This document shows, piece by piece, positions 37,042-51,608 of a DNA stretch of 64,000 nt. The notes beneath the pieces were generated by a model. It was not told the origin of the DNA, made no database searches, and worked only from the letters and a program-made list of their open reading frames with translations. Position numbers and translations under genes: made by a program. Where the stretch lies: contig NZ_JAJOYX010000004.1 of the NCBI RefSeq assembly GCF_022565915.1, positions 62,001 to 126,000 of the forward strand, given 5' to 3'. This DNA is from Nesterenkonia sp. LB17 (GTDB lineage: Bacteria; Actinomycetota; Actinomycetes; Actinomycetales; Micrococcaceae). Position 1 is the first letter of the stretch; each line of letters starts with the position of its first letter.

Positions 37042-37893
37042 GTGCAGTGTCAACGCTGTGAGCGGCCGGCCTGTCCGGAGTGTCTGCGGGAGGCCCCGGT
37101 CGGCTTCCAATGTGTGGACTGCCTGGCCCGGGCCAGGGATGAGTTCCAACGCCGCCGGCCCCCGGCGCGCTCCCAGTTCGGTGCCGTGCTGCGCGACGAT
37201 CAGCGCCCGGTGGTCACCTTCACCGTCATCGGGCTCTGCGTCCTGCTCTTCTCCCTGCAGCTGCTCGGCAGCGCCGTCACCGACGCGAACCCTGACCCCG
37301 TCACCGGGGCCCTCTGGTATGCCCCGCTGCAGACGTCTTCCTGGGCTTTCGAGCCCTGGCGGATGCTCACCTCCGCGCTGGTGCATTCTCCGGCCAACGC
37401 CATGCATCTGCTCTTCAACATGTTCGCGCTCTGGTTCATCGGCCGGGCCATCGAACCGGCGCTCGGACCCCTGCGCTATATCGCCCTGCTGACCCTCTCC
37501 GCTCTCGGCGGCTCTGTCGCTGTGCTCTTCCTGACTCCCGCGTGGACCCCCACGCTCGGCGCCTCCGGAGCAGTCTTCGGCCTCTTCGGTGCGCTGTTCA
37601 TCCTGATGCGCGCCACCGGCTCCCAGACCGGCGGAATCCTGGCGCTGATCGCGATCAACGTGGTGATCAGCTTCGTGGTCCCCGGCATCTCCTGGCAGGG
37701 GCATTTCGGTGGACTCGTCATCGGCGCGCTGTGCGCCCTGGTGTTCTCCAAGCCCCCGGCCCGCTCCTCCACCGACCGGCGCCAGGACGCGCGCCGACGC
37801 GCGCGCTGGCAGGGCTTCGGTCTGCTCGGCATCGCCGTGGTCCTGGTGCTGCTCACCGGCCTGGGCATGACCCTGGTGAATCCCTACGCATGA
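37042..37893 (+). CDS. Rhomboid-family intramembrane serine protease with N-terminal zinc motif
   Basis: Rhomboid protease with six predicted helices. Catalytic Ser in TLGASGAVFGLFG, His in WQGHFGGLVIG, and the HxxxN motif in MHLLFNMFALWF. The cytosolic N-terminus is a B-box-like zinc module (CQRC, CPEC, CVDC). The first usual start codon is the GTG at 37042 (283 residues). The in-frame sequence upstream encodes FCPQHPDRPATV, which looks like the missing first half of the zinc motif, so translation may begin at ATC 36997, with GAGGA placed 9 bp before it. It follows ppiA closely. Confidence 0.85.
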   Translation: MQCQRCERPACPECLREAPVGFQCVDCLARARDEFQRRRPPARSQFGAVLRDDQRPVVTFTVIGLCVLLFSLQLLGSAVTDANPDPVTGALWYAPLQTSSWAFEPWRMLTSALVHSPANAMHLLFNMFALWFIGRAIEPALGPLRYIALLTLSALGGSVAVLFLTPAWTPTLGASGAVFGLFGALFILMRATGSQTGGILALIAINVVISFVVPGISWQGHFGGLVIGALCALVFSKPPARSSTDRRQDARRRARWQGFGLLGIAVVLVLLTGLGMTLVNPYA

Positions 37894-37926
37894 ACCACCC
37901 CGCTTCCTCCCCAGGCTGTGCAGGAC

Positions 37927-38033
37927 TAATCCACAGTTTTGTGCACAATTCACAGAAACCTGTGGATAGCGGGCTGACCTGGGGAATCACACCTGTGTAA
38001 CTTATACACACTGTGGATAAACCCTGTGGATAA
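37927..38033. other. Cluster of DnaA boxes outside oriC
   Basis: In about 107 bp: TAATCCACA (37927-37935, one mismatch to TTATCCACA), TGTGGATAG (37961-37969, one mismatch), TTATACACA (38002-38010, fits TTATNCACA), and two perfect inverse boxes TGTGGATAA at 38012-38020 and 38025-38033, spaced 13 bp apart. It lies in the non-coding gap between the rhomboid gene and the CNNM genes, about 13 kb from the dnaA-dnaN origin. No open frame explains it. Confidence 0.75.
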
Positions 38034-38066
38034 CCTTTTGATCTGGGCTTTCACAGCAGATACGAC

Positions 38067-38099
38067 GACGCCGAAACCACAGACCGTGGTTTCGGCGTC
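38067..38099 (-). terminator. Hairpin after the CNNM operon
   Basis: gacgccgaaaccac (38067-38080) pairs perfectly with gtggtttcggcgtc (38086-38099), 5-nt loop. It lies about 50 bp past the stop of the minus-strand CNNM gene. Confidence 0.75.
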
Positions 38100-38149
38100 A
38101 TCGTCATGTTCCGCTGGATGATCCAGCCGGGCCGCCGAGCTGCTGCTGC

Positions 38150-39229
38150 TCAGCGTCGTGCGGCCGCCCCGTGCGGACCGGAGTCGGCAGCGGCCTCTGA
38201 CTCGCTCCACTGCTCCTCCATGGTGGGCCACATCCGCTTGAGGATGTCGTTCCAGGTGATCGCCCCAGCAAGAACGCCGTCGGAGTACACCACTGCCAGC
38301 TGTTCGCCGGCCTCACGCATGGTCTGGAACGCGTCATAGACGGACGCTCCGGTGGACACGACCAGCGCAGGGCGGGCCAGTTCGCTGACCGGGTGCCCCG
38401 GCTCGACGGTGAGCGTGTCCCGCACATGGACCACCAGCGGGTTCGTGCCGGTCTCGGGGATGATCAGAATCCGCAGGTGCCCGGTGCGCTGGGCCGCGGC
38501 CTGCACATCAGCCGCCGTGGCCGAAGCGGTCACCGTAGTGGTCTCCTGACGGGTGCGCGCGGCAATCACATCGTCGACGGTGAGCGTCTCGAGGTCGATG
38601 ACCCGGGAGATCTGCGAGGCCGAGGCCTGATCCAGCATGCCGGTCCGGGTGGAGTGCTCGACCAGATGCCGGATCGTGTCGGAGTCGTAGCCGCCCGCAG
38701 CCGCACGGTCCACCGGGATGATTCCGCTGGCCGCGACCAGTCGGTTGGCGATGCTGTTGATCCAGAGCAGCCAGGGCCGGAAGACCCAGAGGATCACCTG
38801 GGCCGGGAGTGCGACGAGCTTCGCGGCTCGCTCCGGATGCGCGATGGCCCAGGATTTCGGGGCCATCTCGCCGACCACCAGGTGCAGGAAGGTCATCAGG
38901 AACAGCGCCAGCGCGAAGGCGAGCACGTCGGCGGCCCACAGCGGCATGTTCCACGACTCGAAGATCGGGGTGAGTGCGTAGTCGACAGCGGGTTTGCTGA
39001 CCGCGCCCAGCGCGAAGGTACACGCCGTGATGCCCAGCTGGGCTCCGGCGAGCATCACCGTGAGCTCGTTGAGCCCGCGCAGCGCGGCGCGCGCCGAACG
39101 GCTGTGCTCTGCTTCTTCCTCCAGGCGGTGGCGGCGGGCAGCCAGCAGCGCGAACTCAAGGATGACGAAGAAGGCGGAGATGGCAATGATGGCGATGGTT
39201 GCAATGGTGGGGATCAGCCAGTCGCTCAT
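38150..39229 (-). CDS. CNNM/CorC-type membrane protein (DUF21 plus CBS pair)
   Basis: 359-residue HlyC/CorC family protein, probably an ion (Mg2+/Co2+) transporter or regulator. The DUF21 membrane domain occupies residues 1-180 (TIATIAIIAISAFFVILEFALLAARRHRL, AGAQLGITACTFALGAV) and is followed by a CBS-domain pair (TLTVDDVIAART ... VYDAFQTMREAGEQLAVVYSDGVLAGAITWNDIL). Unlike its neighbour it ends without a CorC_HlyC domain. The ATG at 39229 overlaps the stop of the partner gene, and the two may form a heteromer. Confidence 0.87.
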   Translation of the reverse strand: MSDWLIPTIATIAIIAISAFFVILEFALLAARRHRLEEEAEHSRSARAALRGLNELTVMLAGAQLGITACTFALGAVSKPAVDYALTPIFESWNMPLWAADVLAFALALFLMTFLHLVVGEMAPKSWAIAHPERAAKLVALPAQVILWVFRPWLLWINSIANRLVAASGIIPVDRAAAGGYDSDTIRHLVEHSTRTGMLDQASASQISRVIDLETLTVDDVIAARTRQETTTVTASATAADVQAAAQRTGHLRILIIPETGTNPLVVHVRDTLTVEPGHPVSELARPALVVSTGASVYDAFQTMREAGEQLAVVYSDGVLAGAITWNDILKRMWPTMEEQWSESEAAADSGPHGAAARR

Positions 39230-40587: not shown

Positions 40588-40803
40588 CGGGTCACCACCA
40601 GCGTGCACCTGCGGAGATCAGCTTGCCCTGCGTTCGCAGTACTCGGGGGGCGAGATCGTCGCCAGCGGAGTACTGCGCGTTGTAACTCGTACACCTGTGT
40701 CAGGCACCTCTTCAGACTTTAGATTGGACCGATAGATCGAGACTATAGCGCAATCGGGTCCCGGGGGTAGACCGCGTGCGGCAGGTCCTGGCCGGAGTCT
40801 CCT

Positions 40804-49774: not shown

Positions 49775-50902
49775 CTACGGGTTGATCAGGCGCACCGGCA
49801 TCAGCAGATACCGGAAGTCGATGGCCTTCTCGCCGTCGGCTTCGGCCTGACCGGTGATCATCGCCGGCTTGGGCGCCGAGACGAAGGAGAAGCGCAGGAA
49901 CTCGGTGTCGATGACGCTGAGCCCTTCGTTGAGGTATGCCGGGTTGAATCCGACGGTGATCGCCTCACCGGTGAGTGTGGCGGGGATGACCTCGGAGGCG
50001 GAGGCCGCGTCGTCGACTCCTGCGTCGAGGATGACCTCGTTGTCCTGGGTGAACTGCAGCCGCACGTGGCCATTGCGTTCGGAGACCAGGGAGACGCGGC
50101 GGGCCGCCTCGATGAACTCTGCGGTGTTGACCACGGCGTGGATCGGGGTCTCTTCCGGGAACAGCTGTCGGATCTTGGGATAGTCCCCGTCGACCAGCAC
50201 AGAGGTGGTCCGCCGCCCGCCGGAGGAGAAGCCGACCAGCTCGGCGGTCTCGGAGAGCGCGATCTGCAGGGATCCGGCCCCGGCGAGGGACTTCGCCACG
50301 TCGTTCAGCGTCTTGGCCTTGATCAGCACCGAGGTGGAGATCTCGGGGTCTGCCGGGGACCAGTTGATCTCTCGCATGGCAAGCCGGTAGCGGTCAGTCG
50401 CCAGGAAGGTGATGGTGTCACCCTCGATCTCGACCTTCACGCCGGTGAGGATCGGCAGCGTGTCATCCTTCGACGCCGCGGTGATCACCTGGGAGACCGC
50501 GCGGGCGAATGCCGCACCGTCCACGGTGCCGGCGAGCTCCGGCATGCCTGGGAGCTCAGGATATTCGTCCACCGGCATGGTGGAGAGGGTGAACTTCGAG
50601 GATCGGCAGGTCAGCTGGACGCGTGCGTCCTGCAGATGCACGGTGACCGGGGCGTTCGGCAGGGATTTCACGATGTCATTGAGAAGCCGCCCTGAGACGA
50701 GGATCGTCCCGGACTGCTGCACGTCCGCCTCGATGTGCAGCTGGGCGGAGATCTCATGGTCGAAGCTGGAGATGGTGACGGTCTGATCAGCCGCGGTGAT
50801 GTGCAGCCCTGCCAGGACCGGCGCCGGGGGTCGGGGAGACAGCGAACGGGCAGCCCAAGAGACTGCTTCGGAAAGAACGTCCCGCTCAACAGTGAACTCC
50901 AC
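49775..50902 (-). CDS. dnaN: DNA polymerase III beta subunit (sliding clamp)
   Basis: 375-residue clamp. The start VEFTVERDVLSEAVSWAARSLSPRPPAPVLAGL (GTG at 50902) matches actinobacterial DnaN and gives the usual length; AAGGG and CAGGG lie just upstream. The longer in-frame extension runs into the origin. The C-terminus VSAPKPAMITG ... FRYLLMPVRL is the typical end. It starts the dnaN-recF-dciA run and borders oriC. Confidence 0.97.
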   Translation of the reverse strand: MEFTVERDVLSEAVSWAARSLSPRPPAPVLAGLHITAADQTVTISSFDHEISAQLHIEADVQQSGTILVSGRLLNDIVKSLPNAPVTVHLQDARVQLTCRSSKFTLSTMPVDEYPELPGMPELAGTVDGAAFARAVSQVITAASKDDTLPILTGVKVEIEGDTITFLATDRYRLAMREINWSPADPEISTSVLIKAKTLNDVAKSLAGAGSLQIALSETAELVGFSSGGRRTTSVLVDGDYPKIRQLFPEETPIHAVVNTAEFIEAARRVSLVSERNGHVRLQFTQDNEVILDAGVDDAASASEVIPATLTGEAITVGFNPAYLNEGLSVIDTEFLRFSFVSAPKPAMITGQAEADGEKAIDFRYLLMPVRLINP

Positions 50903-51608
50903 TGATCCCTGCCCTTCTTGTGGCTCATCGACAGCCCAGTGCGTAATGTCAAGCATCTGGTGGCTGTGTCGAGTGTCGAGCTTACCTGCAAGAGCGCGGC
51001 AGAAGCCAGCAAAGATCTCAGCGACCACCATATGAGCCCCATGACGGGTCATCAGCCACAAGATCTGGGATCCGAGGATCAGACTGAGACATCGTCGTGG
51101 CCGAGGATCTCAAAGATCGTGACGGTGGGTGTTCTCCGGCTGGATCTTCGTTTCAGCGAGCCAGGTGATTGTTCTCTGTCATTTAAAGGGTTAAGGGTCA
51201 GAAGTGTTAACAGGTGCTGTGGAATCTGTGGATAACCGCCTCCTTCGCGTGCCCTGTCCGGGATCCTCTGTGCACCCAGCGGTGGACCGCCGTCGCTTCA
51301 GCTGTGCACCGGCAGTGGAGATTCGAAGAGGGCCCAAGAGGCCGTTCCCCAGGCATAGCGCAGTTATCCACAGAAAAGTCGGCTTCTGCACCGCTTCGTG
51401 CACTGTTTTATCCACAGCTGTTAACAAGAATCGGGAAAACTCCACCGGTGCCTGTGGATATGTGGGAAAACCTGTGGAGATCGACGCTGTCAACTTCTCT
51501 GAATCCCAACCAGCACAACAAATGACAACGGTGTGAGTTGTGGAGCAGGAGCTTCTCCACAGGTGTCAGGGACGAGCTTGACTTAACTCAGGTCATTCTG
51601 CGGGTGGA
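50903..51608. other. oriC: Chromosomal replication origin oriC (dnaA-dnaN interval)
   Basis: This 706-bp non-coding interval holds perfect DnaA boxes at 51227-51235 (TGTGGATAA), 51364-51372 and 51408-51416 (TTATCCACA), plus one-mismatch boxes at 51453-51461 (TGTGGATAT) and 51553-51561 (TTCTCCACA) and weaker ones near 51473. An AT-rich stretch at 51180-51212 (atttaaagggttaag and tgttaac) beside the box field on the dnaN side is a candidate unwinding element. The dnaA-dnaN position is where actinobacterial origins lie. The part from 50903 to about 51180 shows no boxes. Confidence 0.92.

Follow-up and report, generated by a model that had tools for sequence, protein, structure and literature searches.

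A conserved composite of DnaA boxes and a palindrome near the replication origin of Actinomycetota

What does a second, compact cluster of DnaA boxes do a short way from an intact replication origin? The question is raised by a 64,000-nucleotide stretch of the Nesterenkonia sp. LB17 genome (the window throughout this text), in which an earlier note, made from the letters alone, had recognised such a cluster and suggested that it titrates DnaA like the datA locus, serves as a regulatory site, or is a relocated or second part of the origin. To our knowledge, the limit of one round of replication per cycle is poorly known in actinobacteria, a group with antibiotic producers and major pathogens among its members. 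The cluster is part of a composite element that is kept in its sequence, its geometry and mostly its place over a range of genomes that begins at 1.2 Mb and extends to Streptomyces-like ones. The element is probably an overlooked switch helping to time chromosome copying.

Boxes, palindrome and hairpin in the rhomboid-CNNM gap

The genes for a rhomboid protease and a CNNM protein converge on a non-coding gap (37894-38149), and all five DnaA boxes attributed to positions 37927-38033 are present there (Table 1). The geometry described for them was also borne out, with two perfect boxes 13 bp apart from start to start and a TTATACACA box opposite this pair at a distance of 1 bp. The resulting trio (boxes I, II and III) spans 32 bp and the conserved core is only ~50 bp long. 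Absent from the earlier note was the palindrome TCACACCTGTGTAA, which lies 1 base from the TTATACACA box and is the most informative part of the cluster. The upstream block is conserved across the genus, but less so than the core; a box-like sequence recurs at the position of the CTATCCACA box in a number of congeners, and the TGACCTGGGGAA block occurs at many Nesterenkonia loci and in some other genera. The hairpin region (38055-38115) gave a folding energy of -33.6 kcal/mol (z -8.3) by computation. The hairpin is perhaps a shared terminator of the two convergent genes; a search there for a terminator with a T run found none.

Table 1. Positions of the features in the window, counted from its first base
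Feature	Position	Strand	Remarks
Rhomboid protease gene	37042-37893	+	Pfam PF01694; anchor for finding the locus in relatives
DnaA box TAATCCACA	37927-37935	+	1 mismatch; first part of upstream block
DnaA box CTATCCACA	37961-37969	-	1 mismatch
TGACCTGGGGAA block	37975-37986	+	directly before palindrome
14-bp palindrome TCACACCTGTGTAA	37987-38000	no strand	consensus TTACACNNGTGTAA; candidate operator for a dimeric factor
DnaA box I TTATACACA	38002-38010	+	faces boxes II and III
DnaA box II TTATCCACA	38012-38020	-	opposes box I, 1-bp gap
DnaA box III TTATCCACA	38025-38033	-	tandem with box II, 4-bp gap
Hairpin, 14-bp stem	38067-38099	+	without T run; outside the conserved element
CNNM/CBS protein gene	38150-39229	-	Pfam PF01595; converges on rhomboid
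dnaN	49775-51061		DnaN confirmed by Pfam
dnaA-dnaN intergenic region (oriC)	51062-51608	no strand	three TTATCCACA boxes
dnaA	51609-53477		DnaA confirmed by Pfam

Such boxes are far more frequent in the window than expected. The pattern TTATNCACA occurs 7 times against 0.11 expected from shuffled sequences, and sites with at most one mismatch to TTATCCACA occur 15 times against 3.04. In the whole 2.82-Mb genome there are 14 occurrences of TTATNCACA, comprising three at the gap, three at oriC (51227, 51364 and 51408) and eight others. The gap thus equals oriC in its number of good boxes and holds them in tighter spacing, as had been claimed.

Conservation, geometry and location of the element

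A survey based on the rhomboid gene covered 58 genomes (LB17 included). Rhomboid was matched in 53 of them, and 30 of the loci were then read, 27 from Nesterenkonia (LB17 included) and three from other genera of the family. The earlier note would have been contradicted by close relatives with the same flanking genes but no boxes. On the rhomboid side, where this was checked, no such contradiction emerged: the cluster adjoins rhomboid in each of the 27 Nesterenkonia genomes in which that gene was matched, again counting LB17; the three genus genomes with no such match are 65-82% complete. The core is present in 30 of 30 loci as palindrome, box I, 1 bp, reversed box II, 4 bp and reversed box III, the single exception being a II-III gap of 3 bp (L017). 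The best core match reached 18-23 of 23 positions, against 13-16 in reversed loci. Among the 27 Nesterenkonia loci, the element has a pairwise identity of 0.71 and each flank one of ~0.28, the latter being background level, although part of this contrast arises by construction because the boxes served as anchors for aligning the loci; for the 40 unanchored bases preceding the boxes, identity is 0.47-0.62. A chance cluster is ruled out by the box enrichment, the genome box count, the conservation in the genus and the reversed-locus control.

The element reaches well beyond the family. A model of the sequence only, made from the rhomboid loci of genus and family, had a match in 324 of the 396 order genomes (E<=0.01); for a broader model made from 63 loci, the counts were 264 of 394 in the class and 85 of 296 in the phylum (both at E<=0.001), a match anywhere in the genome being counted in all three cases. 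At these cut-offs, with strict filters, 72 of the 396 order genomes and 130 of the 394 class genomes had no model match. Only the best matches of the searches were listed and the loci read are subsets of these, namely 30 + 40 in the order (five being refetches), 29 + 20 in the class (one of the 29 being the LB17 locus) and 20 outside the class.

Most of the loci read share the neighbourhood trpG - element - rhomboid - ppiA. At least one of these three genes lies within the fetched locus in 25/30 top order matches, 33/40 wider order loci (five of them refetches), 28/29 top class matches (one of them LB17's own), 19/20 further class loci from 11 families, and 9/15 loci of a Streptomyces-like set in which second matches are included. 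Of 44 named loci retrieved with an exact pattern, from Amycolatopsis, Rhodococcus, Prescottella, Mycobacterium and Mycolicibacterium, Pseudonocardia and Nesterenkonia, 41 likewise have such a gene; the pattern fixes the spacing, and hence these loci are no evidence on spacing. Outside the class, 13 of the 20 loci have a neighbour gene, which is trpG in 12, ppiA in one and rhomboid in none. Because some of the fetched loci are short, missing neighbour genes are no proof of another location. Orientation relative to rhomboid varies, with 39 loci in the same and 106 in the opposite orientation over the sets compared, and 17 and 16, respectively, in the wider order set.

The distance from the element to oriC in the window is ~13.2 kb, in agreement with the 13 kb given before. 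Of eleven other genomes fetched for this measurement, G566 was left out as its dnaA falls outside the fetched stretch, and in the remaining ten the element begins at distances of 10.2, 14.4, 15.0, 15.4, 17.4, 20.2, 20.4, 25.2, 32.6 and 35.5 kb, counted from where the dnaA match starts. Hence, the element is a DnaA-box cluster outside but near oriC, both in the window and, at 10-36 kb, in the ten other genomes.

The gaps between boxes I and II and between boxes II and III are mostly 1 + 4 bp or 2 + 3 bp across the fetched loci. The former spacing is found in 37/64 order and 35/48 class loci and the latter in 21/64 order, 9/48 class and 16/20 loci outside the class. The distance from box I to box III is constant, and box II moves by one base between both spacings. 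The motif ACA-N4-TGT directly precedes box I in 61/64 order loci, 47/48 class loci and 18/20 loci outside the class, every locus having been found by a model that itself includes the motif. In most Actinomycetes loci read, the tandem boxes II and III are 4 bp apart. One base added to a 3-bp box pair strongly reduced DnaA association in E. coli (PMC11317965); by analogy, the 4-bp tandem spacing, poorly tolerated by E. coli DnaA, counts against a reading of the element as a site of DnaA control.

This geometry also bears on a role like that of the E. coli DARS sites, in which the head-to-head trio would load ADP-DnaA and promote release of ADP, thereby raising ATP-DnaA and stimulating initiation, with the palindrome factor taking the part of IHF/Fis at DARS2. 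Box I stands opposite boxes II and III as in the cores of DARS1 and DARS2, both by the published rule (PMC5742627) and by the K-12 sequence that we read, where the three-box core runs -> <- <- just as it does in the window. The core here also has a possible site for a cofactor next to it. The directions of the boxes therefore agree with DARS; the core spacing does not, since the gaps are 5 + 3 bp in both DARS cores against mostly 1 + 4 or 2 + 3 bp here. Location differs as well, the DARS sites being placed between oriC and terC rather than near oriC, and DARS2 impairing timing when moved near either (PMC5742627). We consider a DARS-like role unlikely.

Several taxa depart from the common arrangement. 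Of the 198 element loci fetched, two contain dnaA or dnaN (L091 of family f3 and L230 of family f36; 0/30 top order, 1/40 wider order, 0/29 top class, 0/44 named, 0/20 further class, 1/15 Streptomyces-like and 0/20 outside the class, with some loci short and five refetched), and the best match is at oriC in one f36 and one f3 genome. In three genomes of a genus of family f3 (g61), a single contig ends with the module and begins with dnaA. If the chromosome is circular, the module is ~190-220 bp before the dnaA match (L336-L338 with L093, L103 and L104) and has either shifted to the dnaA/oriC region or remained there; because of this layout, the module is taken to be at or beside oriC in a few taxa. 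In genus g3, which has small genomes and belongs to the same family as LB17 (f1), the best copies are beside ABC transporter, MarR or hydroxyethylthiazole kinase genes. The genus (L063-L066, L035, L036, L039 and L041) has several copies of the module, some of them paired ~300-500 bp apart, and one g3 genome also carries a copy adjoining rhomboid. The Streptomyces-like genomes (family f37) have the trio beside rhomboid with a diverged palindrome and one extra box. At ~100-120 kb from the element they also carry another cluster of DnaA boxes (G444:C1:4406102-4406392, G552:C1:1663592, G742:C1:4359158 and G715:C63:297872; L234, L237 and L238), which in G742 is on the far side of dnaA, at ~80 kb from that gene.

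It is highly improbable that the element serves as a second origin, as an accessory one or as a part split off from a bipartite oriC. The number of good boxes, equal to that of oriC, their tighter packing and the position of the module at or beside oriC in a few taxa speak in its favour. However, dnaA, oriC and dnaN are intact in the same window with the element 13 kb away rather than beside them, dnaA or dnaN accompanies so few of the fetched loci, and a trio of 32 bp is far smaller than an origin. A crude measure shows no distinct AT-rich stretch apart from the boxes at the element and shows none at oriC either, the most AT-rich windows being the boxes themselves at both sites. For this genome, given the intact origin and the small core, the earlier suggestion of a relocated or second origin is not supported.

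The palindrome at whiB2 and nrd promoters

Only two sites in the LB17 genome have at most one mismatch to the palindrome consensus TTACACNNGTGTAA, the window element and C4:30507. With up to two mismatches there are 14 sites against 21 for a backward control, so that only low-mismatch sites are informative; these numbers rule out that the palindrome is a common genome-wide repeat. One two-mismatch copy within the window, GTACACCTGTGTCA at 40689-40702, lies in the gap between the divergent genes for CNNM2 and an alpha/beta hydrolase. It has no DnaA box with at most one mismatch near it and may be due to chance.

The one-mismatch palindrome at G000:C4:30507-30520 (L126) covers the -10 of a promoter-like CTTGAC-N17-TGTAAT upstream of a whiB gene. 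A glycosyltransferase gene follows, and from this whiB2-like context we take the gene to be whiB2. Among 30 whiB2 loci of the genus and family, 29 have a one-mismatch palindrome no more than 400 bp upstream of the coding stretch that was matched, and the thirtieth, which is near a contig end, has it when the whole locus is read. In the same regions, two control patterns at up to two mismatches gave no site. No DnaA boxes were noticed at the whiB2 promoter palindrome. In the order, this whiB gene is shared by 12 of 23 loci with the exact palindrome (17 of the 23 were compared by BLAST), and Pfam confirmed WhiB on three of the order loci. In the class, 27 new and three old exact-palindrome loci were fetched from a longer list; the 27 new ones comprise 11 copies of the element, seven whiB loci (by tblastn) and nine loci with shared genes.

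One of these nine loci contains NrdR and another a class II ribonucleotide reductase, both by Pfam, and nrdR-nrdJ promoters of other families show the exact palindrome. In one locus of the order (L110), the neighbour of the palindrome is a class I reductase gene. The nrdHIE promoter of LB17 itself (G000:C3:338753-338766, L335) has a two-mismatch palindrome followed by DnaA-like boxes, the reductase being assigned by Pfam (PF02867) and nrdH and nrdI by eye from the translations. Boxes resembling those of NrdR were also seen by eye at L335. The spacing from the palindrome to the DnaA-like box that follows it at these nrd promoters is similar to that between palindrome and box I in the element.

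In family f13 (L105 and L107-L109) the exact palindrome, by eye extended to TTTACACCGGTGTAAA, is near a gene for a solute-binding protein (called by Pfam on L107 only) and looks like the operator of another regulator. Loci L122 and L111 were assigned to no class. Known regulators were considered as owners of the palindrome. NrdR and parS were set aside since their consensus sequences are presumably different. FtsR and BldO were rejected because their published motifs (AACCCTAAAGTAAAGGTTGAGGGTA, PMC6683498; TGxAATTxCA, PMC5485038), do not match TTACACNNGTGTAA when compared by reading.

That the same palindrome covers the -10 of whiB2 promoters and stands beside DnaA boxes at nrd promoters raises the alternative that DnaA and the factor regulate a neighbouring gene or a small transcript at the element, as at the nrd promoters. 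CTGACC-N16-TGTAAC across the window palindrome forms a weak promoter-like layout by eye, and in genus g61 the module is just before dnaA. By contrast, the flanking genes converge, the flanks are unconserved and orientation to rhomboid varies; a promoter scan of 37700-38400 found none, and no Rfam family was found at the element at gathering score. Together these observations point to a site in DNA rather than a gene switch or an RNA, and make control of transcription quite unlikely. A transcribed RNA was rejected on the empty scan, the lack of an Rfam family at gathering score and the unconserved flanks.

The promoter copies bear as well on whether DnaA and the dimeric factor might mark the ori region for positioning or segregation instead of controlling initiation. 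The element is origin-proximal in the ten genomes measured and its palindrome has a fixed neighbour, as such a mark might have. The presence of the palindrome at nrd and whiB2 promoters, however, fits control of cell-cycle genes better than anchoring, and we rate a positioning role as very unlikely.

Since the palindrome is common to the nrd and whiB2 promoters, its factor probably ties together initiation, dNTP supply and division. We tentatively propose, as a reading almost as plausible as not, a cell-cycle regulon in which one dimeric factor on TTACACNNGTGTAA acts at the origin-proximal site and at the nrd and whiB2 promoters and, with DnaA, couples initiation, dNTP supply and septation. 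The factor would dock ~1 base from a DnaA box at both the element and the nrd promoters, and the origin-proximal site would be ancient. The joint role of the factor and DnaA would be comparable to that of CtrA and GcrA in Caulobacter. The element and the nrd/whiB2 palindrome offer a deletable handle on replication control and a bait for the missing regulator.

A proposed mechanism and its relation to known systems

On balance we favour, with moderate confidence, the view that the composite is an origin-proximal site that sequesters or regulates DnaA, is gated by a putative dimeric factor and is conserved in Actinomycetota. DnaA is predicted to bind all of the trio, in which box I opposes the other two, and the factor on the palindrome would assist or gate this binding. 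A dimeric partner, in place of the IHF/Fis of datA and DARS2, is suggested by the palindrome adjoining box I. Lying near oriC, the element would be duplicated soon after initiation, and the doubled element would then soak up or inactivate DnaA and so restrain re-initiation; the coupling to dosage that follows from early duplication suits sequestration of DnaA. Domain I of actinomycete DnaA forms a conserved dimer, proposed to serve cooperative assembly and perhaps the linking of separate boxes (PMC13270200). For E. coli, it has been argued that boxes crowded near oriC favour titration (PMC12371093).

From the observed sequence element, its geometry, conservation and position and the palindrome that it shares, we infer binding by DnaA, the existence of the factor, its cooperation with DnaA and a negative direction of control, and the sequence evidence fits either sequestration or reactivation of DnaA. 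Against the favoured view weigh the genomes with no model match, the diverged palindrome of the Streptomyces-like genomes, the g3 copies at unrelated loci and the taxa with the module at or beside oriC. With regard to the titrating or regulatory locus like datA in the earlier note, titration stands as something that we infer, and the regulatory option is weakened by the convergent genes and the varying orientation.

DnaA-box clusters outside oriC, and near it in Streptomyces, are an already known kind of site. Smulczyk-Krawczyszyn et al. (2006) reportedly described the clusters D78, H24 and H69 of S. coelicolor, deletion of D78 being said to raise replication. As the Streptomyces-like trio is beside rhomboid, one published S. 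coelicolor cluster, H69 judging by its cosmid, may be this locus. The second cluster of the Streptomyces-like genomes is perhaps another of the published ones. Okumura et al. (2012) are said to have described oriC-proximal DnaA-box clusters in Bacillus subtilis. The E. coli datA locus is farther from its oriC than the element is. The literature searched, which included few subscription journals and was partly seen in excerpt, held no account of the composite element, its phylum-wide conservation or the nrd/whiB2 link of the palindrome, nothing relevant on the palindrome sequence together with whiB, and no paper bringing a DnaA box together with two or more of crgA, pknB, ppiA, trpG and rhomboid.

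Compared with E. coli datA, the element is likewise an intergenic cluster of DnaA boxes with a site for a second protein, and datA titrates DnaA (PMC5742627; PMC11317965). The two differ in that datA has another set of boxes and works by IHF-dependent ATP hydrolysis, whereas the boxes of the element adjoin a different palindrome. The B. subtilis clusters are near the origin and restrain initiation, and the S. coelicolor clusters outside oriC are likewise actinobacterial; both are reported to repress untimely initiation (PMC5742627), the effect proposed here for the element.
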